Assembly (NCBI RefSeq): GCF_000422945.1
Contig: NZ_AUHA01000002.1
Span: 620,001-684,000, forward strand
From: Daejeonella oryzae DSM 19973
GTDB taxonomy: Bacteria > Bacteroidota > Bacteroidia > Sphingobacteriales > Sphingobacteriaceae
Length of the DNA: 64,000 nucleotides
Direction of reading: 5' to 3'
Below are positions 46,374-60,579 of this stretch, piece by piece. Numbering within the stretch: the first letter of the stretch is position 1; every line of letters begins with the position of its first letter. The position numbers and the translations under genes were made by a program. The notes beneath the pieces were generated by a model that made no database searches, was not told the origin of the DNA, and worked only from the letters and a program-made list of their open reading frames with translations.

Positions 46374-47708
46374 TTATGCCTGTTTTGCAAGCAATGCTTC
46401 CAGGGCCCGGTTAACTTTTTCGAAGTTGAACTCTCGAATTGTTGCAGCAAAAATATGGCTTATCTCCTCATTGCACAAATTACCTATACTTCCCTCATGC
46501 GTATGCTCCAGTTTTGCAGGTGCCTTAAATTCTCCTGCCTGTATCAATGAGCCTATTTTTTGATACGCTTCACGGAAGGGAACACCTTTTAGAACTTCGG
46601 CATTTACAGCTTCTACACTAAATAAATAAGCGTATTTCTCGTCATTTAAGAGGTTATCGCTTACGCAGATATTCTGAAGCATAAACGCGGTCATCTCCAG
46701 GCATTCGTTTAAGGATTGAAAAGCAGGAAACAGATTTTCTTTTAGAAGTTGAAGATCTCGGTGATAACCCGATGGAAGGTTTGTGGTCATCATAGCAATT
46801 TCATTGGGCAGGGCCTGAATCTTATTGCATCTCGATCGAATCAGTTCAAAAACATCCGGGTTTTTTTTATGAGGCATAATGCTCGAACCCGTGGTCAGTT
46901 CATCAGGAAAACTGATAAAAGCAAAATTCTGATTGATAAACAGGCAAACATCCATAGCCAGTTTTGCCAGCGTGGCCGCCACAGAAGACATAGCCTGAGC
47001 CAGAATCCGCTCCGTTTTTCCCCGACCCATCTGGGCATACACAACATTGTAATTCAGCGTTTCAAAGCCGAGCAATTCGGTGGTCATGGTTCTGTTCAAG
47101 GGAAAAGACGAACCGTAACCTGCGGCAGAACCCAGCGGATTTTTGTTTACAATCTTCCAGGCTGCACGCATTAATTCCATATCATCTGCCAGGCTTTCGG
47201 CGTAGGCGCCAAACCACAGCCCAAATGAAGAAGGCATTGCAATTTGTAAATGAGTGTATCCCGGAAGGAGTTTATCTTTATTTTCTTCGCTTTGGCGGAT
47301 TAACTGCCGGAAAAGCAAGTCTGAATTATGAACCATCTGTTCTATCCGGCTCCTGAAAAATAATTTCAGATCAACCAGCACCTGATCATTACGAGAGCGG
47401 CCGCTATGAATCTTTTTACCAGCTTCTCCAATACGTTGGGTCAGCAAAAACTCTACCTGAGAATGTACATCCTCCACGTTATCATCAATGGAAAATTGAC
47501 CATCCGCTATTTCACGGTAAATATTTTTAAGCTCCTGCTGAATAAGTTTTAAATCATCTGAACTTAGCAGTCCGATGCTTTCAAGCATTTGAGTATGAGC
47601 CAATGAACCCAGCACATCAAATGCAGCCATTTGCAGATCAAGCTCACGGTCTTTGCCAACGGTGAATTTGTCTACTGATTTTTCTATTTCTTTATTTTTT
47701 TGCCACAT
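46374..47708 (-). CDS. argH: Argininosuccinate lyase
   Basis: A 444-residue lyase of the fumarase/aspartase superfamily. The signature GSSIMPHKKNPD (about residue 275) carries the mobile active-site serine loop. HSQVEFLLTQ and SGRSRNDQV are the other conserved regions. It splits argininosuccinate to arginine and fumarate, the last step of the pathway. It lies six bases after the M20 hydrolase gene. Confidence 0.95.
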   Translation of the reverse strand: MWQKNKEIEKSVDKFTVGKDRELDLQMAAFDVLGSLAHTQMLESIGLLSSDDLKLIQQELKNIYREIADGQFSIDDNVEDVHSQVEFLLTQRIGEAGKKIHSGRSRNDQVLVDLKLFFRSRIEQMVHNSDLLFRQLIRQSEENKDKLLPGYTHLQIAMPSSFGLWFGAYAESLADDMELMRAAWKIVNKNPLGSAAGYGSSFPLNRTMTTELLGFETLNYNVVYAQMGRGKTERILAQAMSSVAATLAKLAMDVCLFINQNFAFISFPDELTTGSSIMPHKKNPDVFELIRSRCNKIQALPNEIAMMTTNLPSGYHRDLQLLKENLFPAFQSLNECLEMTAFMLQNICVSDNLLNDEKYAYLFSVEAVNAEVLKGVPFREAYQKIGSLIQAGEFKAPAKLEHTHEGSIGNLCNEEISHIFAATIREFNFEKVNRALEALLAKQA

Positions 47709-47714
47709 TCTGAT

Positions 47715-48782
47715 TTAGGTTTTTAAAATAATCTGATCAATCATTTTCACATATATCCCAATTCCTTCAGTTATCTCATTGATAAAAATATATTCATCAG
47801 CCATATGCGATCGGGCTGAATCGCCGGGGCCCATTTTCAGGGATGGAATATCCAGTAATGCCTGATCACTGGTAGTTGGAGAGCCATAGGTTTTTCGTCC
47901 CAAAGAAATTCCGGCCTGTACAATGGGATGTCCGGTATCAATAAAAGATGGCTTTAAGCGCAATGATCTCGGTATTACCTCGCAGGATACATGTGTACGA
48001 ATAATCTTAAGAATTTCTTCGTTTCGATAGGCATCCGTAACGCGTATGTCGACCGTAAATTTACAAAGTGCAGGTACCACATTATGCTGTGAGCCAGCTT
48101 CAATAATGGTGACACACATTTTTACAGGTCCGAATAATTTAGATTCTTTTGAAAAGCGGTAGCTGCGAAACCATTCTATATCCATTAAGGCTTTATAAAT
48201 TGCATTCTCACCTTCTTCGCGTGCTGCGTGTCCCGCTTTGCCTTTTGCCACACAGTCTAAAACCATTAATCCGCGTTCGGCTATTGCTAAATGCATTTCG
48301 GTAGGTTCGCCAACAATGGCAAAATCCAGTTCACCCAAATCCGGAATAATAAGTTCAAGGCCATTTCTGCCTGAAATTTCCTCTTCTGCGGTAGCAGCAA
48401 TACATAAATTATATTTTAAATCTTCCCTGCTGTAATAATAAATGAAGGTAGCGATAAGGGAAACCAAACATCCTCCTGCATCGTTACTGCCAAGTCCATA
48501 TAACTTACCATCTTCAATTTTTGCTTCGAACGGATCACAAGAATATCCGGAATTTGGTTTAACCGTATCGTGATGTGAGTTTAATAAAATGGTAGGCTTT
48601 TTATCATCGAAATACTGGTTAAACGCCCAGATATTATTCAGTTTTCGCTGCGTTTTTATTCCATGCTTCTGCAAAAAAGACTCAATAATTAAAGCAGTTT
48701 CATCCTCTTCCTTACTAAAGGATGGAGTAGAAATTAGATTTTTAAGTAATTCAATACTTTCTGCAGCTAATATTTCAATCAT
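47715..48782 (-). CDS. argE: M20 metallohydrolase, N-acylornithine/N-acylcitrulline deacylase (ArgE-like)
   Basis: A 355-residue M20 peptidase-fold enzyme. Metal ligands lie in LNSHHDTVKP, LGSNDAGG and the glutamate pair ATAEEEISG. VGEPTEM is the usual following motif. In Bacteroidota that use an acylornithine carbamoyltransferase, this enzyme removes the acyl group from N-acylcitrulline rather than from N-acetylornithine. That role here is inferred from the neighbouring carbamoyltransferase. Confidence 0.87.
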   Translation of the reverse strand: MIEILAAESIELLKNLISTPSFSKEEDETALIIESFLQKHGIKTQRKLNNIWAFNQYFDDKKPTILLNSHHDTVKPNSGYSCDPFEAKIEDGKLYGLGSNDAGGCLVSLIATFIYYYSREDLKYNLCIAATAEEEISGRNGLELIIPDLGELDFAIVGEPTEMHLAIAERGLMVLDCVAKGKAGHAAREEGENAIYKALMDIEWFRSYRFSKESKLFGPVKMCVTIIEAGSQHNVVPALCKFTVDIRVTDAYRNEEILKIIRTHVSCEVIPRSLRLKPSFIDTGHPIVQAGISLGRKTYGSPTTSDQALLDIPSLKMGPGDSARSHMADEYIFINEITEGIGIYVKMIDQIILKT

Positions 48783-48787
48783 CGCTC

Positions 48788-49606
48788 TTACTCCTTAATA
48801 TATAATCCGCCGGCCTTAAGTGCAGAAAGCTTAATACCCTTTATCAGTGATGAACTAAAGCCCTGATGCTCCATTTCATTGAGACCGGCAATGGTACAGC
48901 CTTTCGGGGAGGTAACTTTATCTATTTCCTGCTCCGGATGACTGTTATGCTGCAGCAAAAGATCAGCGGCTCCTTTAGCAGTTTGAGCAGCCATCTTAAG
49001 GGCCTCATCTGCATGAAAGCCAATTTCAACCCCTCCCTGCGAGGCAGCCCTTATCGCCCTCAGAAAAAATGCTATTCCGCAGGCACACAATGCAGTTGCA
49101 GCAGTCATCAACTCCTCGTTAATCTGAATTATAGCTCCAACAGTTTCAAACATAGCCTTTACTTCTTCAAGATTTTCGGCCTCTGAATTATCAGATGCAA
49201 TGCAAGTCATTGACTGGCGGATGGCGATAGCGGTGTTGGGCATTGCTCTTACCACCTGCACTTTATCTCCCAGCTTTGACCGGATATTTTCGCAGGTAAC
49301 ACCCGAAACCACAGAAATAATTAAATGCCTGAGAGGATCAATAGCCAAAGCAATTTCATCCAGCAAACCATTTAATTGCTGAGGTAACACCGCAATAATT
49401 ATTACAGAGGATTCTTTAACAGCTTCAAAATTTTGATCTGTTACTTTAAAACCCTGCTCTGCCTGGGCAGAAACTTTTTGAAGATTGCGGCGGGTGAGCG
49501 TAATGTGATCAGCGGGACAATAGCCTGATGCGATTAATCCTTTTGCAAGTGAGGTGCCTATATTCCCACTACCTAAAATTGCTATTTTATTCGAGCTCTT
49601 ATCCAT
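48788..49606 (-). CDS. proC: Pyrroline-5-carboxylate reductase
   Basis: A 272-residue ProC. The nucleotide-binding motif ILGSGNIGTSLAKGL is at the N-terminus, and the C-terminal dimer domain contains GVEIGFHADEALKMA and TSPKGCTIAGL. It reduces pyrroline-5-carboxylate to proline. It lies inside the arginine operon (4- and 5-base gaps), so proline and arginine synthesis from glutamate are coregulated. Confidence 0.94.
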   Translation of the reverse strand: MDKSSNKIAILGSGNIGTSLAKGLIASGYCPADHITLTRRNLQKVSAQAEQGFKVTDQNFEAVKESSVIIIAVLPQQLNGLLDEIALAIDPLRHLIISVVSGVTCENIRSKLGDKVQVVRAMPNTAIAIRQSMTCIASDNSEAENLEEVKAMFETVGAIIQINEELMTAATALCACGIAFFLRAIRAASQGGVEIGFHADEALKMAAQTAKGAADLLLQHNSHPEQEIDKVTSPKGCTIAGLNEMEHQGFSSSLIKGIKLSALKAGGLYIKE

Positions 49607-49610
49607 AGCC

Positions 49611-50402
49611 TTATTGAATTAATCTAGTTCCAAAAGAGAGATTTTTGTTTAAAAAAGAGAGTTCAGCGGCTTTGCCGATATATACTTCCCTGACTCCGTT
49701 ATTTATAGATTGAAATGCATTGTGCAGCTTGGGAATCATGCCGTCAGCAATTATTTTCTTTTCTTTTAATGATTCAAAATCTGATGACCTGATTTCTCTG
49801 ATAACAGAATCTTCATTCTCTATATTCTCTAAAACTCCCTTTTTATCAAAACAATATACTAAACTGGTTCCATAGTATGGGGATAATGCTACCGCGATGG
49901 CAGAAGCAATGGTATCGGCATTGGTATTAAGTAATTGTCCGTTCCCGTCATGGGTGATAGCGGAGAAAACCGGAATAAAACCAGTTTCCAATAACTTTTT
50001 AAGGGAGCCTGCCGCGATGGAGTTATTATCCAGGTCGCCTGCAAAACCATAATCAATAGCTTTTACAGGGCGCTTGCTGGCTTTAATCAGATTACCGTCG
50101 GCACCGCAAAGTCCAATTGCATTACAATCTTTTGCCTGAAGCTGAGCCACAATTGATTTATTGACCAAACCGGCATAAACCATTGTCACAACTTTTAAGC
50201 TTTCAGCATCAGTAATTCTGCGGCCTTCAACCAGTTTTGCTTCGATACCCAGATCGAGGGAAATTCTGCTTGCAATTTTACCGCCTCCGTGGATCAATAT
50301 TTTATATCCTTCAATAGCGGCAAAATCCTGTAAGAATTGTTCCATATTTCGGGGATCGTCTATTACATTTCCACCAATTTTCAGGACATTTAGTTTTTCC
50401 AT
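49611..50402 (-). CDS. argB: N-acylglutamate kinase (acetylglutamate kinase family)
   Basis: A 263-residue amino-acid kinase. KIGGNVIDD and LIHGGGKIAS form the phosphate-binding elements; NTNADTIASAIAVAL is the conserved late motif. It phosphorylates N-acylglutamate, the second step of the pathway. Acyl group (acetyl or succinyl) is undetermined. Fifth structural arg gene after the GNAT gene. Confidence 0.94.
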   Translation of the reverse strand: MEKLNVLKIGGNVIDDPRNMEQFLQDFAAIEGYKILIHGGGKIASRISLDLGIEAKLVEGRRITDAESLKVVTMVYAGLVNKSIVAQLQAKDCNAIGLCGADGNLIKASKRPVKAIDYGFAGDLDNNSIAAGSLKKLLETGFIPVFSAITHDGNGQLLNTNADTIASAIAVALSPYYGTSLVYCFDKKGVLENIENEDSVIREIRSSDFESLKEKKIIADGMIPKLHNAFQSINNGVREVYIGKAAELSFLNKNLSFGTRLIQ

Positions 50403-50456
50403 TTTCTATCTTGTCATTTTGAACGAGAGTAAAAATCATCCCACAGCGTGCAATTG

Positions 50457-51416
50457 TTAAAGCTTTTCGAGCATTTTTTTCAAGACTACCTGAGCAGCCC
50501 ACACCCGGTTTCCGGCCTCTTTTATAACCAGTGAATTTGGTCCGTCGAGTATTTCTGAAGAAAGTTCAAGGTCTCGCCGAACAGGCAAACAATGCATTAT
50601 TTGTGCGTTATTACTGCTTTCTAATTTTTTGTTATCAATCATCCAGCCTTCACCTTCTGACAATATTTTTCCATATTCCCGGTAGGAAGACCAATTCTTT
50701 ACATAAATAAAATCAGCATTTTCCAAGGCCTCTTCTTGGTTATAGGTTATTGATGCGCCCGCGGTAAACTCTTCAGCTAGTTCATATCCTTCCGGGTGAG
50801 TAATTACAAAATCGACCAAGCCTTCCTGCTGCGCCCGGCACATCCATTCTGAAAAAGAATTGGGAACCGCCTGCGGCAAAGACTTTACATGGGGAGCCCA
50901 TGATAAGACCACTTTGGGTTTCACTGTTTGCTTCTGCTCTTGAATTGTTATCAAATCTGCCAGGCTTTGCAAAGGGTGAAGGGTTGCACTTTCAAGACTT
51001 ACTACCGGAACGCCGCAAAATTTAACGAATTTACGGAACAGATTTTCGCTGTAATCTTCTGTTCTATCCTCAAGTTTAGGAAAAGATCGCAGCCCCAAAA
51101 TATCACAATACTCGCCCATTACGGCTGCAGCTTCGCGAATATGTTCTACTGTTGTACCGTTCATAACCACCCCATCGCGGGTTTCTAATGCCCAGCCATC
51201 TTTATCCATGTTCATCACCATTACATTCATGCCCAGATTCAGGGCAGCTTTCTGTGTGCTTAGACGTGTACGAAGACTCGGATTTAAAAAAACCAAACCC
51301 AAAGTTTTGTTTTTGCCCAGGTTTTGAAAGCCGTACGGATCTTTTTTTAATTCAAGAGCCTCATTTACTAGTTGCTTTAAATCGTTTATATCTTTTACCG
51401 AGGAAAATAATTTCAT
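50457..51416 (-). CDS. argF': N-acylornithine carbamoyltransferase, probably N-succinylornithine type
   Basis: A 319-residue transcarbamylase of the acylornithine branch (ArgF'). NPSLRTRLSTQKA is the carbamoyl-phosphate loop, and HPLQSLADLIT and HCLPVRRD are conserved. Residue 90 decides substrate: Pro in Bacteroides N-succinylornithine enzyme, Glu in Xanthomonas N-acetylornithine enzyme. Here it is Val (GTTVEH), which by recalled mutational work favours N-succinylornithine. Normal length. Confidence 0.9.
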   Translation of the reverse strand: MKLFSSVKDINDLKQLVNEALELKKDPYGFQNLGKNKTLGLVFLNPSLRTRLSTQKAALNLGMNVMVMNMDKDGWALETRDGVVMNGTTVEHIREAAAVMGEYCDILGLRSFPKLEDRTEDYSENLFRKFVKFCGVPVVSLESATLHPLQSLADLITIQEQKQTVKPKVVLSWAPHVKSLPQAVPNSFSEWMCRAQQEGLVDFVITHPEGYELAEEFTAGASITYNQEEALENADFIYVKNWSSYREYGKILSEGEGWMIDNKKLESSNNAQIMHCLPVRRDLELSSEILDGPNSLVIKEAGNRVWAAQVVLKKMLEKL

Positions 51417-51443
51417 AATTGTGATTAGTGCGATCCTCTAAAT

Positions 51444-52577
51444 TCAGGATGACAATGTTGAATTAAAAGCCTCCAAAAACTGTTCGGCTTGAGATTTAGA
51501 TAAATTTAATGCCGGGAGCAATCGAATTACGTTTGGTTTAGCTTCGCCGGTAAAAATATGTTGCTTAAACAGCAGATCTTTTTTTACATGAGAAAGTTCT
51601 TCCGGTAGATCAATTCCAATCATTAGTCCGCAACCTCTAACTTCCCGAATCTGAGAAAACTTTTTTAGTTCTTCAATCAGATAGGTACCAATACCGGAAG
51701 CATTCTCCATCAGATTATCCTCCTTAATTACCTCCAAAACCGCAAGAGCAGCTGCGCATGCCAAGTGATTACCGCCAAAAGTTGTTCCAAGCATACCATG
51801 CCAGGGTTCAAATTGCGGGGCGATAGAAATGGCGCCTATCGGGAATCCATTGCCCATCCCTTTTGCCATACTGTATATATCGGCATTCACTCCGGAGAAG
51901 TCATGAGAATAAAATTTGCCGCTTCTTCCGTAGCCGCATTGAACGCTGTCTGCTATAAAAACAGAGTTATACTCCGTACAGAGCAATCGGATTTTTCTAA
52001 GAAAGATATCAGAAGCAACCCGGATACCGCCTACACCCTGAATTCCCTCAACAATTACTGAAGATATTTCATTGCCAAATTTTGCAAAAGCATTTTCCAA
52101 AGCCTCTACATCATTAAAAGGCAGAAAAGTTACATGATCGGTTTCATTAACCGGAGCAACAATTTTAGGATTATCAGTTGCTGCAACCGCCAGAGATGTT
52201 CGTCCATGAAAAGCTCCTTTGAAAGCAATAATCTTTTTACGCTTGTTGTAAAAAGAGGCCAGCTTAAAGGCATTTTCATTTGCTTCTGCACCCGAATTAC
52301 ACAGAAATAACCTGTAATCTTCTTTTCCTGAAATCTTCCCCAGCTTTTCGGCCAGTTGCTGTTGTATTGGAATTTGAATAGAATTTGAATAAAACCCAAC
52401 CTTACTTAACTGGTCAGTTATTCGTTTCAAATAATGCGGATGAGTATGACCAATTGAAATAACAGCATGGCCGCCATACAGATCCAGATATTCTGTTCCC
52501 GCTGCATCCCAAACATTGCTGCCGTACGCTTTAACAATATTTATATCGTTGATCGGATATACGTCGAAGAGTTTCAC
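51444..52577 (-). CDS. argD: N-acylornithine aminotransferase
   Basis: A 377-residue class III aminotransferase. YLDLYGGHAVISIGH, NSGAEANENAF, the lysine motif YSMAKGMGNGFPIGA and GTTFGGNHLAC are typical of ArgD. It makes N-acylornithine from the semialdehyde with glutamate as donor. It is followed by the carbamoyltransferase gene after 27 bases. Confidence 0.94.
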   Translation of the reverse strand: MKLFDVYPINDINIVKAYGSNVWDAAGTEYLDLYGGHAVISIGHTHPHYLKRITDQLSKVGFYSNSIQIPIQQQLAEKLGKISGKEDYRLFLCNSGAEANENAFKLASFYNKRKKIIAFKGAFHGRTSLAVAATDNPKIVAPVNETDHVTFLPFNDVEALENAFAKFGNEISSVIVEGIQGVGGIRVASDIFLRKIRLLCTEYNSVFIADSVQCGYGRSGKFYSHDFSGVNADIYSMAKGMGNGFPIGAISIAPQFEPWHGMLGTTFGGNHLACAAALAVLEVIKEDNLMENASGIGTYLIEELKKFSQIREVRGCGLMIGIDLPEELSHVKKDLLFKQHIFTGEAKPNVIRLLPALNLSKSQAEQFLEAFNSTLSS

Positions 52578-52580
52578 TTT

Positions 52581-52605
52581 GTAAGTTTTAAATAGTAAGT
52601 TTTAA
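52581..52605. repeat. 14-bp tandem duplication between argD and argC
   Basis: GTAAGTTTTAA occurs at 52581-52591 and again at 52595-52605, giving a tandem unit of 14 bases in the 114-base argD-argC gap. A small inverted repeat CCTTA/TAAGG lies nearby. No clear function. Confidence 0.6.
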
Positions 52606-52691
52606 GTGAGAGGTTTTTACGTTTTTTGATTCCTAACCTTATTTATTAAGGATATAAGCATTGCTTTAACTTCATTAATATTTTTATTAAA

Positions 52692-53762
52692 CTAAAACCC
52701 TGTTGCTTTCAGTCTCAAACCTGTTGTTTCTTCTATCCCAAACATCAGATTCATGTTCTGAAGAGCTTGACCGCTTGCACCTTTTAATAAATTATCTATA
52801 ATGGAAATAATAAAAAGCTTGTTTCCATGCTTTTCAAGATAGATAAAGCATTTGTTGGTATTAACCACCTGCTTTAAATCGATATTATTTTTGCTGATAT
52901 GTGTGAATGGCTGTTCGGAATAAAAATTTTCAAATAATATATAGGCTTCATCTAAACTCAAATCGCATTCAAGATAAATTGAAGCTAAAATCCCTCTGGG
53001 AAAATCTCCGCGTTGCGGGATAAAATTTAAAATACCCTGACCGCCCAACTGTGGAATGAAATCGGCTTGTAATTGATTCAAGCTCTGGCTTATTTCATAT
53101 AAATGCTGATGTTCAAAAGCCTTGTAAACTGATAAGTTATTATTCCTCCAGCTAAAATGCGATGTTGCCGATAAACTTTGTCCGGCGCCTGTTGAACCTG
53201 TGGTTGCATTCACATGCACCTCGCGTTTCAATAAGCCCTTGGAGGCAAGAGGCAATAATCCTAATTGTATACATGTGGCAAAACAACCGGGATTTGCAAT
53301 ATTCTTTGCTGATTTTATGGATTCGCGGTTTAGTTCCGGCAATCCGTAAAAAAACTGACGGGTTAGAGGTTTAGGATTCAAATCTGCTTCAGGATTTTGA
53401 ATAACAAAATCGGAATTGTGATTTAATCTGAAATCCTGACTCAAATCAATAATCTTAATTTCGGAGTCAATCTCATTCGTCTCCAGAAATTTTTTCGAAT
53501 CGTTATGACCAACACATAAAAATAAAACATCCACATACGTCAAATCTTCGGCAGATCCGAGAGATTTCAAAACTTCATGTCCCGAAAATTTTAAATCTGT
53601 ATCACCTAATAGATCTTTATGAACCTCAAATACATCATTTCCAGCATTACTGTTACTATGAATAAAGACGATGTCAACCTGCGGATGATTGATAAGCAGG
53701 CGAATAAGCTCTCCGCCGGTGTAACCTGCACCGCCAATAATTCCAGCTTTTATCTTATTCAT
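52692..53762 (-). CDS. argC: N-acyl-gamma-glutamyl-phosphate reductase
   Basis: A 356-residue ArgC. GGAGYTGGELIRLL is the NADP site, the active-site cysteine is in IANPGCFATCIQ (about residue 155), and LSQDFRLN and LPELNRE are conserved. It makes the semialdehyde used by ArgD. Its start overlaps the argG stop by eight bases. Confidence 0.95.
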   Translation of the reverse strand: MNKIKAGIIGGAGYTGGELIRLLINHPQVDIVFIHSNSNAGNDVFEVHKDLLGDTDLKFSGHEVLKSLGSAEDLTYVDVLFLCVGHNDSKKFLETNEIDSEIKIIDLSQDFRLNHNSDFVIQNPEADLNPKPLTRQFFYGLPELNRESIKSAKNIANPGCFATCIQLGLLPLASKGLLKREVHVNATTGSTGAGQSLSATSHFSWRNNNLSVYKAFEHQHLYEISQSLNQLQADFIPQLGGQGILNFIPQRGDFPRGILASIYLECDLSLDEAYILFENFYSEQPFTHISKNNIDLKQVVNTNKCFIYLEKHGNKLFIISIIDNLLKGASGQALQNMNLMFGIEETTGLRLKATGF

Positions 53763-54981
53763 TATTTACCTCCTGTTCTCCTTGCCGGAGCGCTGCGGAG
53801 GCATTTACCTTATGCCAGATCATTACCTGGTTGCCAAATATTTTCGAAAAGCCTTTCACATCTTCACCACTCCATGTATTATTCATTTCTCCGTAGCTGC
53901 CAAATTTATTCGACATCAGATCATGTTCAGACTCAATTCCAAGGATCTGGAAACGGTACGGATGCAACTCCAAAAAAACTTTACCCGATACTGTTTTCTG
54001 AGTATCGGCCAGAAATGCTTCTATATTTCTCATCACAGGATCGTGAAACTGACCTTCATGAAGCCAGTTGCCATAAAAAGAGGCCAGCGATTCTTTCCAG
54101 CTTAACTGCCATTTAGTAAGGGTATGCTTTTCTAAGGTATGGTGTGCTTTAATAATAATTACAGGAGCGGCGGCTTCAAAACCAACACGTCCTTTAATTC
54201 CGATTATGGTATCTCCAATATGTATATCACGACCAATTCCATAAGGCTGAGCCATGTTTTGCAATTTCTGAATGGCCTGTACCGGAGACATTTTCATCCC
54301 ATCAATGCCACACAATTCTCCTTCTTCAAATAGCAATTCTACTTTAATAGAATTGGACTCACTTACCTGAGTTGGCCAGGCTTCTTCCGGAAGGTATTCA
54401 TTAGAAGTAAGTGTTTCCTTTCCCCCAACAGATGTTCCCCACAGACCTTTATTAATGGAGTATTTTGCTTTTTCTGCACTGTATTCAACACCATGATTTT
54501 TCAAATACTCAATTTCCGCTTCGCGGCTTAATTTGAGATCACGTATAGGAGTTATAATTTCTACCTCAGGAATCAGGATATTGAAAATCATATCAAAGCG
54601 TACCTGATCATTACCGGCACCGGTACTTCCATGCGCCACATAGCCTGCACCGATTTTCTTTACGTAATGAGCAATAGCTGTTGCCTGACTAACACGTTCG
54701 GCACTTACAGAAAGCGGGTAGGACGCGTTTTTCAACACATTCCCAAACACCAGATATTTAATACAGTTTTTGTAATAACTCTCCGTTTCATCAACCACTG
54801 CGTGGGATGTTACTCCCAAAGCATATGCCCTTTTTTCAATTTCTTTAAGCTCATCTTCAGAAAATCCACCCGTATTTACAATAACAGAATGAACTTCTAA
54901 TCCCCGGTCCTGAGATAAATATATAGAACAAAAAGAGGTATCCAGGCCGCCACTAAATGCTAAAACTACTTTTTTCTTCAT
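53755..54981 (-). CDS. argG: Argininosuccinate synthase
   Basis: A 408-residue ligase. The P-loop-like AFSGGLDTSFC is at the N-terminus; STGAGNDQVRFD and WGTSVGGKETL are conserved. It condenses citrulline and aspartate using ATP. Second gene of the operon, 76 bases after the GNAT gene, and the first recognised arg enzyme. In this pathway citrulline is released from N-acylcitrulline by the ArgE-like enzyme. Confidence 0.95.
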   Translation of the reverse strand: MKKKVVLAFSGGLDTSFCSIYLSQDRGLEVHSVIVNTGGFSEDELKEIEKRAYALGVTSHAVVDETESYYKNCIKYLVFGNVLKNASYPLSVSAERVSQATAIAHYVKKIGAGYVAHGSTGAGNDQVRFDMIFNILIPEVEIITPIRDLKLSREAEIEYLKNHGVEYSAEKAKYSINKGLWGTSVGGKETLTSNEYLPEEAWPTQVSESNSIKVELLFEEGELCGIDGMKMSPVQAIQKLQNMAQPYGIGRDIHIGDTIIGIKGRVGFEAAAPVIIIKAHHTLEKHTLTKWQLSWKESLASFYGNWLHEGQFHDPVMRNIEAFLADTQKTVSGKVFLELHPYRFQILGIESEHDLMSNKFGSYGEMNNTWSGEDVKGFSKIFGNQVMIWHKVNASAALRQGEQEVNNE

Positions 54982-55057
54982 TGGATAATAATTGAGATTA
55001 TGCGAGGAAATTTGAGGTCCCGAATAATATTAATTTTTTACAGTTGCAGATTTGAAA

Positions 55058-55732
55058 TTAAATCTGCCTTGAACTCATAAACAAAACAGGGAGCAATAAT
55101 TTAGCCGATTTCTTAACGCTTGCCTCTATACGTTCTAAAAGCGATGCCTTGTGCGAAAGCTTTTTCATCTTCTCTTCAATCTCTTTAGCCTTTTCTACCG
55201 GATCCCACAGCATAGCTGTACACATGCAGTTTTTGCGATCCTTGCTTTTAAGAATATCATAGTTAACGCAGCTTTGACAACCTTTCCAAAATTCTTCGTC
55301 CTGCGATAATTCAGAATAGGTTACAGGTTCATATCCCAGTTCAGAATTAATTTTCATAACGGCCAAACCGGTAGTTAATCCAAATATTTTAGAATCCGGA
55401 TATTTCTGACGTGACAGTTCGAAAACTTTGTATTTTATCGCTTTTGCCAATCCACAATTTCTAAACTGAGGGCTTACAATTAAACCGGAATTGGCCACAA
55501 ATTTACCATGACTCCAGGTTTCTATATAACAAAAGCCGGCCCATGTTCCATCTGTATGCAAGGCGATAACCGCTTTGCCTTCTATCATTTTAAGCATGAC
55601 GTATTCCGGAGTACGGCGGGCGATACCTGTGCCACGGGCTTTAGCCGATTCGGCCATTTCATCACATATCTGAGATGCGTATTTGGTATGTTCTTCTGTT
55701 GCTGGTATAACAACAAACTCGTTTTCTTTCAT
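55058..55732 (-). CDS. GNAT acyltransferase, candidate N-acylglutamate synthase
   Basis: A 224-residue GNAT protein, first gene of the arginine operon. The acyl-CoA-binding stretch is VSPQFRNCGLAKAIKYKV (about 87-103), and KINSELGYEPVTYSEL is a typical C-terminal GNAT feature. Unusually, a cysteine cluster follows (C152-x2-C155 and C169-x-C171), which may bind a metal. No classical argA or argJ is in the operon, so this protein is a natural candidate for the missing first step. Function is inferred from position only. Confidence 0.75.
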   Translation of the reverse strand: MKENEFVVIPATEEHTKYASQICDEMAESAKARGTGIARRTPEYVMLKMIEGKAVIALHTDGTWAGFCYIETWSHGKFVANSGLIVSPQFRNCGLAKAIKYKVFELSRQKYPDSKIFGLTTGLAVMKINSELGYEPVTYSELSQDEEFWKGCQSCVNYDILKSKDRKNCMCTAMLWDPVEKAKEIEEKMKKLSHKASLLERIEASVKKSAKLLLPVLFMSSRQI

Positions 55733-55743
55733 GTTTTTTGAAG

Positions 55744-55766
55744 AAAAAATCCGTTTTTGAAGCGGA
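55744..55766 (-). terminator. Second terminator-like hairpin of the arg leader
   Basis: On the minus strand TCCG (55766-55763) pairs with CGGA (55753-55750) across a 9-base loop and is followed by six T. The stem is short, so it is weak. It lies 12 bases before the GNAT ATG and directly after the stronger terminator. Confidence 0.45.
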
Positions 55767-55790
55767 AAAAAGACTACGTTTTTAGTCTTT
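55766..55790 (-). terminator. Intrinsic terminator (attenuator) in the arg operon leader
   Basis: On the minus strand AAAGACTA (55790-55783), loop AAAACG, TAGTCTTT (55776-55769) and a T run of six in all. It sits 33 bases upstream of the first structural gene, so it would stop transcription before the operon unless bypassed. Confidence 0.75.
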
Positions 55791-55821
55791 ACTTGGGTGA
55801 AAAAATATTTTAATTGAATTT

Positions 55822-55844
55822 AAAACCGGGAGATAAGCGGTTTT
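55822..55844 (-). promoter_or_regulatory. AAAACCG/CGGTTTT hairpin in the arg leader
   Basis: A perfect 7-bp stem (55844-55838 with 55828-55822) and a 9-base loop, located between the leader peptide stop and the terminator. It resembles a terminator but has only a mixed A/T tail. It may be part of the switch. Confidence 0.5.
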
Positions 55845-55846
55845 TT

Positions 55847-55882
55847 AAGATTTGCCAGAGCTCAAGCCCTTGGCGTAAATCG
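55847..55882 (-). promoter_or_regulatory. Long hairpin starting at the arginine codons of the arg leader
   Basis: On the minus strand GATTT-AC-GCCA-A-GGGC, a TTGA loop, GCTC-TGGC-AAATC form a 13-bp stem with two bulges. Its 5' arm overlaps the last CGA codon and the final codons of the leader peptide. A ribosome stalled on the CGA codons would block this arm, one completing the peptide would briefly cover it. Confidence 0.5.
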
Positions 55883-55996
55883 TCGTCGGAGTGTAAGAAA
55901 CACGGTTCCGGGGAAAGGACAATTTCCTGATCTATGATCTACCCTGGCCGTTTTAGCGACAGGTGTAGATGAAAGATATGTAAAGGAAATGTTCAT
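55862..55996 (-). CDS. Putative arginine-rich leader peptide (44 aa)
   Basis: ATG at 55996, TGA at 55864-55862. The peptide starts MNISFTYLSSTPVAKTARVD and ends LTLRRRFTPRA. Six of 44 residues are Arg, three of them as consecutive CGA codons (55888-55880) close to the stop. It begins about 22 bases after the predicted transcript start. It lies entirely in the leader of the arginine operon, followed by hairpins and terminators. A chance frame of this length is possible in isolation. The codon run, placement and downstream structure together support a regulatory leader peptide. Confidence 0.55.
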   Translation of the reverse strand: MNISFTYLSSTPVAKTARVDHRSGNCPFPGTVFLTLRRRFTPRA

Positions 55997-56024
55997 TGTT
56001 AACAGATGGATTTATTTTTTTTTG

Positions 56025-56055
56025 CAAAGTATCAAATAAAAATCGAGCTAAACAA
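56025..56055 (-). promoter_or_regulatory. Predicted promoter of the arginine operon
   Basis: On the minus strand TTG (56055-56053) is followed after 20 bases by ATACTTTG (56032-56025), a one-off match to TAnnTTTG. Transcription would start near 56018, giving a leader of about 285 nt before the GNAT ATG. Confidence 0.4.
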
Positions 56056-56095
56056 CACAGAAATCTAATAAAATTGAATTTCTACATTGACGGTA

Positions 56096-56830
56096 TTAAC
56101 CTGCTATTTTGCGCAGTTTAATAATCCGAAGCATGTGCAATAATCGCATAAATGGATAAACTGGGTCGAATTCAAACCATCTTTTTGCAAAATTCGGACT
56201 GTTTGGAAATTTGTGGTGGTTATTCTGGAATAATTCGCCCAGCATCAAAAAATCAAATGGAGTGGTATTTTTTGATTTGTCTTTATTATCAAAATTAGAA
56301 TATCCGTATTTGTGTCCGCACCAGTTAACAATAGCGCCATGGATTGGCCCCATTAAAAAATGGATCGGCAAAAGTAAAAACATCCACCATTGTGTAGCAA
56401 AAAATACGTAAAACAAGGTGTATAAAACGCCAAATCCAATTCTGGAAAATGCGGTGTTGCCTAAAAAATCCATGAATTTCCATTCCGGGTAATTGCCTGT
56501 AAAACGCTTCTCAGGAAGATGTTTATACTTCAAAACATTCTGAAAAATATTTTTGGTATGAAAAGTCATTCTAAAAATATCCTTAAAGAAATGAGGTGAA
56601 TGCGGATCCTGCTCCGTATCGCTATAAGCATGATGCATGCGGTGTAAAATGGCATAGGCCCTGGGATTAAGAAAGGAGGATCCCTGGAAAATATAAGTCA
56701 TTATATAAAATACCTTCTCCCAACCTTTACTAAAAGTAAACATCTTATGTGAAGCATACCGATGAAGAAAAAAGGTTTGAAAAAATAGAGAGAGAAACCA
56801 ATGAGCAAAGAAGAAAATTAATATAATCAC
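56096..56830 (-). CDS. Fatty acid desaturase (acyl-CoA desaturase type)
   Basis: A 244-residue membrane di-iron desaturase. The three histidine boxes are HRYASH (about residue 24), HRMHHAY (about 65) and NNHHKFP (about 205). Hydrophobic segments flank them. It introduces a double bond in membrane lipid acyl chains. It is monocistronic, with an operator-like set of repeats upstream. Confidence 0.9.
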
Positions 56831-56939
56831 AATTAAAATTTAATGAGGGGCTAAATTATTAATAAAGTACTGAATTATATAAGATCATTTTCCTGGCCCG
56901 TAAAAAATAATTGTGCGTTATAAATCCAATAAATACATA

Positions 56940-57027
56940 TACGAAATATTTACGCATCCGTATTTAAAATTTCGTAAAGTTATGTGTTAATTCACCAATA
57001 GCTGTATAAATACGCATAATTATTTCG
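56940..57027. repeat. Nested inverted and direct repeats upstream of the desaturase gene
   Basis: TACGAAAT (56940-56947) and ATTTCGTA (56969-56976) flank an inner TACG-CATC-CGTA palindrome (56951-56962). The heptamer TACGCAT recurs at 57011-57017 and ATTTCG at 57022-57027, so a half-sized second copy exists 60 bases away. Located 110-200 bases before the desaturase ATG, these may be regulator-binding sites. Confidence 0.45.
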
Positions 57028-57094
57028 GGTAAGGGATTTAATCAGAGGATTTTACAGGGAATAATGAAGTTACAGATATGTATTAATTTTTAAT

Positions 57095-57748
57095 TCAGGG
57101 TTTACCATCCCTGAAAAGAATGGCCTTACGGAGTTTAATAGGTTTCTGAATATCTATCTGATGTTTCTCTTTACTGATAGAAATTCCCAGTAGTTCAAAA
57201 TCTTTAGAGGTTTTCTGATTCAGGTTTATAACCTTATAACCATCCTGAGAATTAAAAAAACAAAGGGCAGTTGGAATTACCTCTGTACCTTTCTCTTTTT
57301 TAAGATACAAACTGCTTGTAAAATCGCCGGTAGAAGCTATATGCGTATTTTTTGCATCAACAAACAATTTGGTTTGTTCCGGTAGATCAGCTGCAATCTG
57401 ACCTTGAATTGTCCAGTGTTCGTACAATGAGGATAAATCAGAATTCTGTTTTTTCAGGTTTTCATTTTCTGCAATTACCTTTTCAAGCTGCTTTGAAGTA
57501 GAATCATTCATGTATTTTAGGGTAAAAGCGAATGCAATCAGAACCAGGAGAAAATATCCTGCAAAGGCTCCCGACAAATTAATGGTTAATCCTTTAAACG
57601 GACCGCTCACGCTGGTTTGCGCCGGCAATGTTTTGTACAATATATAGGCGGGAATTAAAGGAATGAGGAAGCCTGCTAAAAGGTAGAGAATACTTAAGTT
57701 CATAACCTTAATTTTCATTAAGTTATGATGATTTAGGGGGAAATACAA
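57095..57748 (-). CDS. Membrane-anchored protein of unknown function
   Basis: Up to 217 residues; the real start is probably one of the internal methionines (Met11 at 57718 or Met16), since the hydrophobic helix begins just after (NLSILYLLAGFLIPLIPAYI). A second transmembrane helix lies at about 62-83, followed by a short coiled coil (KQLEKVIAENENLKKQNSDL). A soluble C-terminal beta-rich domain of about 100 residues ends the protein. I do not recognise the family. Isolated single gene. Confidence 0.6.
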   Translation of the reverse strand: MYFPLNHHNLMKIKVMNLSILYLLAGFLIPLIPAYILYKTLPAQTSVSGPFKGLTINLSGAFAGYFLLVLIAFAFTLKYMNDSTSKQLEKVIAENENLKKQNSDLSSLYEHWTIQGQIAADLPEQTKLFVDAKNTHIASTGDFTSSLYLKKEKGTEVIPTALCFFNSQDGYKVINLNQKTSKDFELLGISISKEKHQIDIQKPIKLRKAILFRDGKP

Positions 57749-57854
57749 ATTAAGGAAGGAAGATAGCTAATCCGGAGATTTAAAACACCCACCTTAGATT
57801 TGATCCTGGAATACCCCGGTAAAAAAACCTCTGGAACAATTCTCTACCAACCGC

Positions 57855-57903
57855 TTGACTATTAAAGTAATTAATCTATCTTTGCAGTCCCTAATAAATA
57901 GGG
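57855..57903 (+). promoter_or_regulatory. rplM promoter and 5' leader hairpin
   Basis: TTG (57855-57857), a 19-base spacer and TATCTTTG (57877-57884) form the best promoter match in the window. The transcript should start near 57891, where CCCTA-ATAAA-TAGGG (57889-57903) forms a small hairpin. A leader binding L13 for feedback is possible but unproven. Confidence 0.6.
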
Positions 57904-57939
57904 GTAATAGAAATTGTTAAATAATTTAAATTCAAGCAA

Positions 57940-58383
57940 GTGAATACGTTAAGTTACAAAACTGTCTCTGCCAACAAAACGACCGTTAACAAAGAATGGG
58001 TAGTTGTTGACGCTCAAGGCGAGATTTTGGGGCGCTTGTCTTCTAAGATCGCAATGATGATCAGAGGAAAACACAAGCCATCGTTCACCCCACACGTAGA
58101 CTGCGGAGACAATGTGATTGTCATCAATGCAGACAAAATTAAACTGACCGGAAACAAATTCGAAGAAAAAGAATACGTTTCCTATACCGGCTATCCAGGC
58201 GGTCAGAAATTCATTTCTCCAAAAGAGTTAATGGCGAAACATCCAACACGTGTAGTTGAAAAAGCTGTTCGTGGTATGTTACCAAAAAATCGTTTGGGCA
58301 AAGCTTTGTACAAAAACCTGTTTGTTTATGCAGGTTCAGAACATCCGCATGCTGCGCAAACACCAAAAACCATTAAACCGTAA
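57940..58383 (+). CDS. rplM: 50S ribosomal protein L13
   Basis: A 147-residue L13. It starts at GTG (57940), and the N-terminus NTLSYKTVSANK fits Bacteroidota L13. RLSSKIAMMIRGKHKPSF and AVRGMLPKNRLGKALYKNL are conserved. It is the first gene of the rplM-rpsI-rpsB-tsf operon, with a strong promoter upstream. Confidence 0.97.
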   Translation: MNTLSYKTVSANKTTVNKEWVVVDAQGEILGRLSSKIAMMIRGKHKPSFTPHVDCGDNVIVINADKIKLTGNKFEEKEYVSYTGYPGGQKFISPKELMAKHPTRVVEKAVRGMLPKNRLGKALYKNLFVYAGSEHPHAAQTPKTIKP

Positions 58384-58387
58384 TTAA

Positions 58388-58392
58388 AGGAG
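58388..58392 (+). promoter_or_regulatory. Strong Shine-Dalgarno of rpsI
   Basis: AGGAG, seven bases before the rpsI ATG. Noted because Shine-Dalgarno sequences are generally scarce in Bacteroidota. Confidence 0.8.
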
Positions 58393-58399
58393 AAAAGAA

Positions 58400-58786
58400 A
58401 TGTCAACTACAAACACTTCAGGAAGAAGAAAAACCGCAGTTGCCCGCATTTATTTAACTGAGGGAAGCGGCGTGATTACCGTAAATGGTAAAGATTACAA
58501 AGAGTATTTTCCAACATTGCCATTGCAATACGTGGTTACACAATCATTAGAAGTATCTGGTTCAACCGGTAAATTTGATGTAATCGTAAACGTTGCAGGT
58601 GGTGGAGTAAACGGACAAGCAGGTGCTGTACGTTTAGCTATTGCCAAAGCAATAGTAGAACTGGATCCGGAGACGAAATCTTCTTTGAGCGCTAAAGGAC
58701 TGATGACACGTGATAACCGTATGGTTGAGCGTAAGAAACCAGGTCGTAAGAAAGCCCGTAAGAAATTTCAATTCAGTAAACGTTAA
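58400..58786 (+). CDS. rpsI: 30S ribosomal protein S9
   Basis: A 128-residue S9 with the typical start (SGRRKTAVARIYLTEGSG) and the basic C-terminus (ERKKPGRKKARKKFQFSKR) that reaches the P-site tRNA. It lies 16 bases after rplM. Confidence 0.98.
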   Translation: MSTTNTSGRRKTAVARIYLTEGSGVITVNGKDYKEYFPTLPLQYVVTQSLEVSGSTGKFDVIVNVAGGGVNGQAGAVRLAIAKAIVELDPETKSSLSAKGLMTRDNRMVERKKPGRKKARKKFQFSKR

Positions 58787-58790
58787 TCTC

Positions 58791-58796
58791 AGGAGG
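58791..58796 (+). promoter_or_regulatory. Strong Shine-Dalgarno of rpsB
   Basis: AGGAGG, eight bases before the rpsB ATG; a full match to the anti-Shine-Dalgarno core. Confidence 0.82.
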
Positions 58797-58804
58797 ATCA
58801 GACA

Positions 58805-59641
58805 ATGGCAAGAACAACATATCAGGATTTATTGGATGCAGGTGTACATTTTGGTCACCTTACCCGCAAATGGGATCCGAAAATGGCTCCGTACATTTTC
58901 ATGGAACGCAATGGCATCCACATTATAGATTTAAATAAAACATTAACAAAGTTAGAAGAAGCTGCTGCTGCGATCAAACAGATCGTAAAATCAGGCCGTA
59001 AAGTTTTATTTGTTTCTACCAAGAAACAAGCGAAAGACATTGTAGCTGAGCAGGCACGTTCTGTAAACATGCCTTACGTAACCGAACGTTGGTTAGGTGG
59101 TATGTTAACAAACTTCCAAACTGTTCGTAAGTCAATCAAAAAGATGTCTAACATCGATAAGATGACTAAAGACGGAACGTATGATGTTTTATCGAAAAAA
59201 GAAAAATTAATGATACAGCGTGAGCGTATTAAGTTAGAGTCTCTTTTAGGAGGTATTGCCGACTTAAACCGTTTACCTGCTGCATTATTTATTATTGATG
59301 TTAAGAAAGAGCACATCTCTGTTGCTGAGTCGATGAAATTAAACATCCCGACTTTTGCAATGGTTGATACAAACTCTGACCCTTCTAACATCGATTTCCC
59401 GATTCCGGCAAATGATGATGCAACCAAATCAATTACCTTGATTATGGATGTAATTATGAAAGCTATCAACGAAGGCTTAGACGAGCGTAAAGTTGAAAAA
59501 GATCAGGAAGCTGATAAAGAAGCTGCAGCTGCAAAAGCTAAAATTGATACCGAAAGTAAGGATGAAGAAGCTCCTGCAAAACGTACCCGCAAGGTTACTG
59601 CAGAATCTAATGCGCCTGAAACTGGTAAATCAGAAGAATAA
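58805..59641 (+). CDS. rpsB: 30S ribosomal protein S2
   Basis: A 278-residue S2. LLDAGVHFGHLTRKWDPKM and RWLGGMLTNFQT are conserved. The last 45 residues or so are a charged, low-complexity Ala/Lys/Glu tail beyond the usual S2 core, seen in several Bacteroidota. Third gene of the operon, next to tsf as in most bacteria. Confidence 0.97.
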   Translation: MARTTYQDLLDAGVHFGHLTRKWDPKMAPYIFMERNGIHIIDLNKTLTKLEEAAAAIKQIVKSGRKVLFVSTKKQAKDIVAEQARSVNMPYVTERWLGGMLTNFQTVRKSIKKMSNIDKMTKDGTYDVLSKKEKLMIQRERIKLESLLGGIADLNRLPAALFIIDVKKEHISVAESMKLNIPTFAMVDTNSDPSNIDFPIPANDDATKSITLIMDVIMKAINEGLDERKVEKDQEADKEAAAAKAKIDTESKDEEAPAKRTRKVTAESNAPETGKSEE

Positions 59642-59739
59642 ATTTTTTATTGTGGGTTGCAGGTTATGTGTTGAAGTTTACTTCAGCAAATTACTTTCAA
59701 CCCATAATTTTTACAGATCAAATTAAAAAAAGAAAAATC

Positions 59740-60579
59740 ATGTCTACAGTACAAATTACTGCCGCAGATGTAAATAAATTACGCCAGCAAACCGGAGCCG
59801 GTATGATGGATTGCAAAAAAGCATTAACCGAAGCTAACGGAGATTTTGAAGCCGCTATTGATAACCTTCGTAAAAAAGGTGCTAAAGTTGCTGCAAGTCG
59901 TTCTGACCGCGATTCTAACGAAGGTGTGGTTATTGCAAAAACTACTGCTGATGGAAAAAGAGGAATCATCGTAGAAGTAAATTGCGAAACTGATTTCGTA
60001 GCCAAAAATGCTGATTTTTTAGCATTTGCAAACAGCATTGCTGATCTGGCTATTCAAAACAACCCAGCTTCAGTTGAGGAATTAACAGGTTATGAGCTGA
60101 ACGGAACAAAAGTTTCTGATCAGATCTTAGATCAAACCGGAAAAATCGGTGAAAAAATCGGCGTTTCTAAATTTGAGAACATTACCGGTGAAAAAGTGAT
60201 TGCTTACATTCACGGAAACTACCGTTTAGGTGTTTTGGTTGCATTAAGTGCTGATTCAGCAGGAGCTGACGAAGCAGGAAGAGATGTAGCGATGCAAATT
60301 GCTGCAATGAACCCGGTTGCAATTGATAAAGATGGTGTGGATGCTAAAACGATTGAGCGTGAGCTTGAAATCGCGAAAGACGTAATTCGTGCCGAAGGAA
60401 AACCGGAAGAAATGGTTGAAAAAATCGCTGCCGGTAAATTGAATAAATTCTACAAAGATTCTACTTTATTAAATCAGGAGTTTGTTAAGGATTCGTCTAA
60501 AACAATTTCTCAATTTTTAAACGAAGTGGATAAGGGATTAACTGTTACCGCCTTTAAACGGGTTCAGTTAGGAGCATAA
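59740..60579 (+). CDS. tsf: Translation elongation factor Ts
   Basis: A 279-residue EF-Ts. The ATG at 59740 is chosen because the conserved start follows (ITAADVNKLRQQTGAGMMDC); an in-frame upstream stretch is leader. VNCETDFVAKN and the RELEIAKDVIRAEGKPEEM region are conserved. It recycles EF-Tu by nucleotide exchange. Last gene of the operon, followed by a terminator. Confidence 0.97.
   Translation: MSTVQITAADVNKLRQQTGAGMMDCKKALTEANGDFEAAIDNLRKKGAKVAASRSDRDSNEGVVIAKTTADGKRGIIVEVNCETDFVAKNADFLAFANSIADLAIQNNPASVEELTGYELNGTKVSDQILDQTGKIGEKIGVSKFENITGEKVIAYIHGNYRLGVLVALSADSAGADEAGRDVAMQIAAMNPVAIDKDGVDAKTIERELEIAKDVIRAEGKPEEMVEKIAAGKLNKFYKDSTLLNQEFVKDSSKTISQFLNEVDKGLTVTAFKRVQLGA

Follow-up and report, generated by a model that had tools for sequence, protein, structure and literature searches.

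The window analysed here, a 64,000-nucleotide stretch of the genome of Daejeonella oryzae DSM 19973, carries an operon for arginine synthesis that follows a short leader on the minus strand in the order GNAT-argG-argC-argD-argF'-argB-proC-deacylase-argH. The full operon content was read in the window, while the loci of relatives were located by the first gene, GNAT, alone. The structural genes and the basis of their assignment were as follows:

55058..55732, minus strand: GNAT acetyltransferase, first structural gene (weak match to Pfam Acetyltransf_1, no NCBIfam family)
53755..54981, minus strand: argG, argininosuccinate synthase (family search)
52692..53762, minus strand: argC (family search)
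51444..52577, minus strand: argD-type transaminase (best match, below its cut-off)
50457..51416, minus strand: N-acetylornithine carbamoyltransferase-type enzyme, argF' (best match, just below its cut-off)
49611..50402, minus strand: argB (family search)
48788..49606, minus strand: proC (family search)
47715..48782, minus strand: ArgE/DapE-family deacylase (best match, below its cut-off)
46374..47708, minus strand: argH (family search)

Judged from its position in the operon, the GNAT protein may be an acetyl- or acylglutamate-forming enzyme. The leader ahead of it (55733-56060) contains the following elements:

56025..56055, minus strand: promoter-like pair, TTG (56055-56053) and TACTTTG (56031-56025), sub-consensus for the Bacteroidota -33/-7 type
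55862..55996, minus strand: leader ORF MNISFTYLSSTPVAKTARVDHRSGNCPFPGTVFLTLRRRFTPRA*, 44 codons, stop TGA at 55864-55862
55880..55888, minus strand: sensor codons 37-39, CGA CGA CGA (codon reading and comparison of relatives)
55849..55881, minus strand: P1, a 13-pair hairpin over the ORF end and stop codon, the candidate anti-antiterminator (folding)
55860..55866, minus strand: 5' strand of the proposed antiterminator, CUUGAGC, which includes the UGA stop (weak in D. oryzae)
55823..55843, minus strand: P2, the second hairpin (folding)
55769..55790, minus strand: T1, an 8-bp A/T-rich hairpin followed by a T run (-6.3 kcal/mol, two G-C pairs)
55757..55763, minus strand: 3' strand of the proposed antiterminator, GCUUCAA, in the 5' arm and loop of T2 (folding and alignment)
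55744..55766, minus strand: T2, a 4-bp hairpin with a 9-nt loop and T6 (stem-loop 55766-55750, T run 55749-55744, -2.3 kcal/mol)

The initial annotation of this DNA had described a 44-codon minus-strand frame at 55996-55862 with six Arg codons, three of them consecutive CGA codons, a 13-bp hairpin at the last CGA and a further hairpin behind it. All of these were recovered at the same place. The Arg codons occupy positions 18, 22, 37, 38, 39 and 43 out of 44; the long hairpin extends from the second base of the last CGA (55881-55849) and encloses the stop codon; the next one lies at 55843-55823. The -33/-7-like pair proposed upstream is also present but falls short of the Bacteroidota -33/-7 consensus in the window. 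In the Sphingobacterium/Parapedobacter group the full pattern TTG-N17-23-TANNTTTG preceded the leader at 15 of 16 loci (0.003 in shuffled sequence); it did so at none of the 16 loci of the own genus, 38 of Mucilaginibacter and 15 of Pedobacter. The consensus count is convincing in the Sphingobacterium/Parapedobacter group only.

Arginine accounted for 3.9% of the codons in 52 genes of the window, and the occurrence of four Arg in the last nine leader codons had a binomial P of 2.6e-4 for a stretch picked post hoc. The single-sequence enrichment is modest, and the comparative evidence is far stronger. Neither Pfam nor NCBIfam held a family for the eight leader peptides tried (P0001 and seven others; Pfam E up to 10). 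Rfam yielded no match in the leader (55733-56060) even at E up to 10, and a scan of 50000-60000 returned only matches below the gathering score, none of them inside the leader. A T-box or riboswitch identity of the leader was dropped for want of any Rfam match.

The GNAT gene was detected in 277 of 301 family genomes and in 103 of the 247 genomes that make up a phylum sample; the named collection supplied 80 loci that were kept. Upstream DNA was examined at 110 loci and at 88 more places from the phylum search (247 genomes); the remaining phylum matches of the GNAT gene, some in fused or interrupted frames, were left out. Removal of L085, with only 8 nt of upstream sequence, and of eight identical upstream regions gave 189 loci. 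A leader was scored where an ORF of at least 12 codons ended 40-200 nt ahead of the gene and held at least three Arg in its last ten codons. This rule was satisfied at 133 of the 189 loci. In a 161-locus subset, dinucleotide shuffles satisfied it in 5.3% of cases and the antisense strand at 3 of 161 loci. Sorted by the family labels of the phylum sample, the counts were 88/106 in f1, 17/17 in f23, 6/6 in f2, 6/6 in f8, 10/25 in f4, 3/4 in f5 and 3/7 in f24, so that the Arg-coded leader was present in sister genera and six further families of the sample. Of the 106 rows labelled f1, at least four (L087, L091, L092, L095) are Myroides or Flavobacterium and lie outside the family. No Arg-cluster leader occurred at the same place in 18 loci of eleven other families, nor in the 13 loci of genus f4g29, which make up 13 of the 15 misses in f4. 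All 18 misses in f1 hold two Arg in the last ten codons; they are L095, L004 from the own genus and 16 loci of the Pedobacter type. Only two Arg in this stretch were found at 16 of 19 Pedobacter-type loci. Sister species lacking the frame, which had been named in advance as counter-evidence, were not encountered among the family loci examined.

Four hand-assembled groups, namely the own genus (16 loci), Mucilaginibacter (38), Pedobacter (15) and the Sphingobacterium/Parapedobacter group (16), covered 85 of the 109 loci with a leader ORF. The other 24 comprised duplicates, near relatives and small lineages, and the count of CGA pairs spans all 109. The pair CGA CGA was present in 87 of these 109 leaders, including all 16 of the own genus, all 38 of Mucilaginibacter and all 16 of the Sphingobacterium/Parapedobacter group. 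Together with the 133 of 189 loci, this count bears out the earlier proposal of an arginine-coded leader peptide ahead of the arginine operon. The pair was found in none of 17 Pedobacter leaders and in none of five others (L086, L087, L091, L092, L095). In Mucilaginibacter the third position of the run encoded Arg in 38 of 38 leaders, as AGG in 26, CGA in 10 and CGG in 2. CGA constitutes 11% of the Arg codons in the 52 window genes, and CGACGA encodes none of the 36 Arg-Arg pairs in these genes.

By the common decoding rule, CGA is read by an inosine-bearing tRNA. Among 37 tRNA matches in the genome, 36 were typed, with the Arg anticodons UCU, ACG, CCG and CCU. No tRNA-Arg with the anticodon UCG was present among the 36 typed tRNAs, which indicates that CGA is decoded by the inosine tRNA, unless the single untyped match (L227) is UCG. 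In a Salmonella his-leader assay, Arg pairs that contained CGA gave high de-attenuation (PMC4046918, in part).

With the start set at the ATG nearest to a length of 43 codons, leaders of the own genus are 43-44 codons long and all 16 of the Sphingobacterium/Parapedobacter group have 44; the lengths are 39-48 codons for Mucilaginibacter and 33-44 for Pedobacter. In the final 14 codons, the differences per codon position (1/2/3) were 0.19/0.03/0.45 for the Sphingobacterium/Parapedobacter group, 0.19/0.12/0.24 for the own genus, 0.25/0.21/0.42 for Mucilaginibacter and 0.19/0.23/0.47 for Pedobacter. In three of the four groups the N-terminal part varied more freely at codon positions 1 and 2 than the C-terminal part did; in Mucilaginibacter, position 1 was alike in both. 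As far as substitution patterns can tell, these values show a coding leader ORF with its C-terminal codons under selection at the protein level.

Several of the retained residues are not arginine. All 16 Sphingobacterium/Parapedobacter leaders have Leu at -11 (six codons) and -4 (three codons) and Pro at -13, -6 and -3 (two to three codons each). In Mucilaginibacter, Pro was kept at -3 in 35 of 37 and at -11 in 36 of 37 leaders, with four codons each. The 15 Pedobacter leaders share Thr at -4 (three codons) and Arg at -2 (four codons); their R-I-stop end is kept, with Pro at -3 in 13 of 15, and the Arg run is gone. Such retention of non-Arg residues despite synonymous change is surplus to the needs of plain codon sensing. 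The C-termini differ by family, f23 ending mostly in RRR-stop, f4 mostly in RRP-stop and f8 in FRV-stop, YRV-stop or RI-stop. Conservation of the peptide sequence beyond its codons, as seen in arrest peptides, was found within subclades only and not between families. Across families Arg alone is held in common, which speaks against one universal arrest motif.

None of 100 dinucleotide shuffles folded as well as the whole leader (55733-56060; z -3.1). In a window around the stop codon the mean folding z was -0.86 over 130 leaders, compared with 0.01 in a control window inside the ORF; by group it was -1.53 in the Sphingobacterium group, -0.48 in Mucilaginibacter, -0.47 in f23 and 0.11 in f2. 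The stop codon was enclosed by at least four pairs in 104 of the 130 leaders, a count without shuffle control. Taken together, P1, P2 and T2 were paired in 81.9% of the alignment cells, a value reached by 1 of 500 shuffles; their covariation was thin, with 115 of 500 shuffles reaching the number of double-change pairs and 82 of 500 the covariation score.

The initial annotation had also described tandem terminators. The hairpins and T runs are indeed there, but they are weak, and their frequency in the genus is at shuffle level. A stricter terminator scan of the leader found none. With a looser scan, terminator-like hairpins in the own genus occurred at 0.50 versus 0.47 in shuffles, with mean energies of -3.6 versus -2.5 kcal/mol. 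They did not exceed shuffles in Pedobacter (0.07 versus 0.20), f4 (0.20 versus 0.40) and f24, and were above shuffles in Mucilaginibacter (0.50 versus 0.17), the Sphingobacterium group (0.81 versus 0.47), f23, f5, f2 and f8. The arms, loop core and T run of T2 were almost invariant in the own genus.

An antiterminator had been missing from the earlier description. A candidate was worked out by partition-function folding from the leading edge of the ribosome in 16 sequences of the genus, which are related and so do not amount to 16 independent tests. The mean probability of this pairing was 0.75 when the second CGA occupied the A site, 0.28 for RNA free from the CGA codons onwards and 0.01 for a wholly unoccupied leader; across the same three states T2 had probabilities of 0.24, 0.48 and 0.64. 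With the ribosome at the second CGA, the antiterminator exceeded 0.85 in 12 of 16 genus members, and T2 was lower there than in the free RNA in 12 of 16. Over 40 shuffles the antiterminator with the ribosome at this codon averaged 0.28 (sd 0.10, highest value 0.51), and the difference between stalled and free states was 0.47 as observed versus 0.09 in shuffles (maximum 0.30). In alignment A1 (20 rows) the antiterminator was paired in 81.7% of cells, compared with 10-48% when the strands were slid, and none of 500 shuffles was as high.

The pairing predicted in 12 of 16 genus members did not extend to the window itself. In its own sequence (L001) the antiterminator was absent in every state tested, with T2 at 0.58-0.92, T1 at 1.00 and a duplex energy of -4.9 kcal/mol. 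T1 is predicted in every state of this sequence, so that the T2 switch would be irrelevant if T1 terminates well. The antiterminator at the second CGA also failed in L002, L004 and L035, of which L004 forms it two codons later. In L009 and L022 it stayed high without a ribosome from the CGA codons until more upstream RNA was added, and in L003 T2 was near 0 in all states. Two double changes were noted in the antiterminator, one of them in L004 (stop UAA and loop U for C). The covariation was thin, as 39 of 500 shuffles reached the number of double-change pairs and 34 of 500 the covariation score. Permutation of strands within groups, which used wide windows in internally similar groups, was negative for coevolution in all of them, with P values of 0.86 in the own genus, 0.08 in Mucilaginibacter, 0.49 in Pedobacter and 0.56 in the Sphingobacterium group.

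Arginine synthesis is usually controlled by ArgR. A search for ArgR (PF01316) was negative in all 61 family genomes, that of D. oryzae included, and positive in the Bacteroides control. Within the phylum sample, ArgR was found in 93 and the GNAT gene in 103 of 247 genomes, and both in four. One of these (G352) has a weak ArgR match in a long frame and another (G329) five matches of equal score in 127-aa frames. The other two (G524 and G532, family f11) have strong ArgR matches that adjoin the GNAT gene, and the Arg leader was absent from the one f11 upstream region examined (L196). Control of the operon through ArgR boxes was dropped as an explanation since no ArgR was found in the family.

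Computation yielded a conserved frame, the CGA-CGA pair, C-terminal selection, a hairpin over the stop codon, no ArgR and, for 12 of the 16 genus members, an alternative pairing. The leader probably acts as a ribosome-mediated, arginine-specific attenuator that senses charged tRNA-Arg. In such a mechanism RNA polymerase would transcribe the short frame with its terminal Arg codons. A shortage of charged tRNA-Arg would stall the ribosome on the CGA codons, where it would cover the 5' arm of P1. The 3' half of that hairpin, with the stop codon and the next bases, would be freed and could then pair with T2 across its 5' arm and loop; with T2 and its T run blocked, transcription would go on into the operon. 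When arginine is plentiful, the ribosome would finish the frame and depart, P1 would close over the stop codon, and T2, located behind T1, would form and bring transcription to an early end. In this scheme the stall, termination and the arginine response are predicted elements. The sensing step is well supported and the output step only moderately; of the first proposal for this locus, the arginine-coded leader is supported and the tandem terminators only in part. Other lineages clearly share the sensor part alone, and from Pedobacter the Arg run is gone; the output may differ there, terminator-like hairpins being within shuffle level in Pedobacter and f4.

An Arg-sensing leader could also work through another output, in which stalling alters the translation start of the first gene or the loading of Rho and no intrinsic terminator takes part. 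This arrangement is possible, though we would not expect it. It would agree with terminator-like hairpins at no more than shuffle level in the own genus, Pedobacter and f4, and the near-invariance of T2 and its T run in the own genus stands against it. A possible contact with the start region was seen in the Sphingobacterium/Parapedobacter group, where the best helix between the leader end and the region before the AUG paired the Arg-Pro codons CGACC with GGUCG, 7-17 nt before the AUG, at 15 of 16 loci; in L042 it took the form GACCC with GGGUC, and L064 was the exception. At 13 of 16 loci of this group the partner base A went with CCU and G with CCC. By score alone, however, 10% of shuffles reached the mean of the group, and the recurrence of place, mainly in this group, is the stronger sign. 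The helix sits behind a terminator-like hairpin and a U-rich stretch and could therefore act on read-through RNA only. For the start region (-22 to +3), predicted accessibility averaged nearly the same in the free and the stalled state in each of the four groups, which also argues against an effect on initiation. An output of this kind has a precedent in the Salmonella speF leader, which works via Rho, masking of the ribosome binding site and mRNA decay (PMC6386406, in part).

The retained C-terminal residues allow for two further readings. TnaC, SpeFL and the fungal arginine attenuator peptide are nascent peptides that offer parallels to the first of these, in which the C-terminus (...P-R-A/V/T/I-stop) slows release or stalls the ribosome when arginine is sensed, alone or together with codon sensing. 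Non-Arg residues kept while their codons change in three groups, and the R-I-stop end that Pedobacter retains after the loss of its Arg run, point in this direction; we nevertheless consider it rather doubtful, given that Arg is the sole residue common to the families and part of the conserved stretch doubles as the 5' arm of P1. Small trans-acting leader peptides exist, and protein-level conservation of the C-terminus would also suit a small protein that has a function of its own, or an element that is passive, with arginine control placed elsewhere. The fixed site ahead of the same first gene and the Arg-specific ending in several families, together with the freer N-terminus of three groups out of four, the CGA-CGA pair of 87 of 109 leaders and the lack of a Pfam or NCBIfam family, make this very unlikely. 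The weak terminators and the modest single-sequence statistics (the post hoc binomial P of 2.6e-4) would even be compatible with a chance small ORF and chance hairpins. This is contradicted already by the comparative counts, since the leader is conserved within the family and beyond, and we assign virtually no probability to it.

Codon sensing by attenuation, the reading preferred here, might be combined with peptide effects in a wider scenario that is speculative and on the whole unlikely. The leader may have spread through much of the phylum and replaced ArgR, and may serve as a double sensor: the Arg codons would report charged tRNA-Arg, and the P-R-x-stop ending would hold the terminating ribosome at the stop, perhaps as a reaction to free arginine, and so mask the antiterminator strand that contains the stop codon. 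The frequent slow CGA-CGA pair and its conserved neighbouring residues offer a natural test of codon choice and of nascent-peptide effects on attenuation, in Bacteroidota, where ribosomes mostly work without Shine-Dalgarno pairing. With an Arg-coded leader at one and the same place in many relatives and in a family where no ArgR was found, the control of arginine synthesis would gain a directly testable answer.

The operons for Trp, His, Phe, Leu/Ile/Val and Thr are known cases of classical attenuation. Two other candidate leaders were observed in the genome of D. oryzae. The gene hisG is preceded by the His-rich ORF MNTVFTHQLHLHHRHEWR*, read from an ATG inside the frame as listed, and a chorismate-binding gene by a Trp-Trp ORF that is followed up by a strong terminator; among the four other amino acid loci inspected, ilvD and another chorismate-binding gene had none. 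In the same phylum, leader-peptide attenuation before amino acid operons has been described for Flavobacterium psychrophilum, and the 5' elements of hisG and pheA are conserved in other Flavobacteriaceae (PMC9723704, in part). Among the leaders named in the passages considered, there is none for arginine (PMC9723704). The initial annotation had known of no described arginine leader peptide in Bacteroidota, and our literature search, with most subscription papers and all preprints outside its scope, found none for arginine synthesis either.

Arginine operons of Bacteroides and others are under ArgR. Such operons share the physiological task with the one described here and differ by the ArgR protein and its operator, ArgR being a protein not found in this family. 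Leaders that respond to arginine are known for speF and rbfL. The leader orf34/SpeFL of speF in Salmonella and E. coli likewise has consecutive Arg codons and an arginine response (PMC6386406, in part), but it controls ornithine decarboxylase instead of arginine synthesis and is based on Rho and RNase G. SpeFL contains the conserved domain PF10940, whereas the eight leaders tried here have no match to PF10940, and the operon downstream is one of arginine synthesis. In rbfL of Staphylococcus aureus, the Arg codons of a short leader also sense arginine restriction; it differs by its target, a biofilm regulator that it turns down under limitation by blocking the ribosome binding site (PMC13009471, in part).

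The closest model is provided by attenuators of the trp and his type, such as trpL, hisL, leuL and pheL of E. coli and Salmonella. Like these, the leader of D. oryzae and its relatives combines a short frame with tandem cognate codons near its end, a hairpin over the end of the frame, a candidate alternative pairing, and a terminator-like hairpin with a T run ahead of the first gene of the matching pathway. It is set apart by arginine as the amino acid probably sensed, a stop codon inside the proposed antiterminator strand, weak terminators, conserved non-cognate residues at the C-terminus, lineages without a clear terminator, and its occurrence in Bacteroidota.

In the A2 alignment, which covers the Sphingobacterium/Parapedobacter group, a GGUCG-type element located 7-17 nt before the first AUG was complementary to the Arg-Pro codons of the leader. 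This complementarity was present in the following upstream regions:

L054, L069, L071, L072, L074, L075, L076, L078
L079, L081, L083, L084, L088, L090, L042

In most of these A2 loci, the third base of the leader Pro codon changed along with its partner base.

In family f4 of the Bacteroidota sample, L149, L154, L161, L166, L170 and L171 each carried an ORF ending in an arginine run, at a distance of some 200-330 nt upstream of the GNAT gene, with endings such as ...INRRRR, ...TRNRRRF and ...GLLRRR directly before the stop codon. A second Arg-bearing ORF was located nearer to the GNAT gene in L154, L161, L166, L170 and L171, and tandem arginine leaders are a possible reading for this family. 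Within the f4 genus g29, L139 and L141 had, instead of the Arg leader, an ORF containing ...TSPEVRML that lay at least some 240 nt upstream of the gene; L136 of the same genus was added to these loci by eye.

The GNAT gene itself occurred in other contexts as well. In family f11, it was adjoined by a strong match to the arginine repressor ArgR in L196 (genome G524) and in genome G532; no Arg leader was found at L196, the sole f11 region inspected. The GNAT domain resided within long open frames of 588-1079 aa in genomes G322, G463 and G499 (family f22) and G540 (family f37), where it is possibly fused to another enzyme.

Two further candidate leader ORFs were identified in the genome of D. oryzae (G000):

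L238, contig C1: ORF that includes Asn-Arg-Trp-Trp, roughly 60-180 nt upstream of position 888
L235, contig C3, reverse strand: ORF rich in His codons ahead of hisG, inside the stretch from roughly 290 to 218 nt upstream of the HisG domain match

The L238 region contains a strong terminator (CCCGACG...CGTCGGG followed by T7) ahead of a gene for a chorismate-binding enzyme, and is likely a tryptophan attenuator. Read from an ATG inside the listed frame, the L235 ORF gave MNTVFTHQLHLHHRHEWR up to its stop codon, with histidine at 5 of 18 residues. A weak hairpin and a T-rich stretch are located 3' of this ORF. The genome that holds the arginine leader likely also harbours a histidine attenuator.
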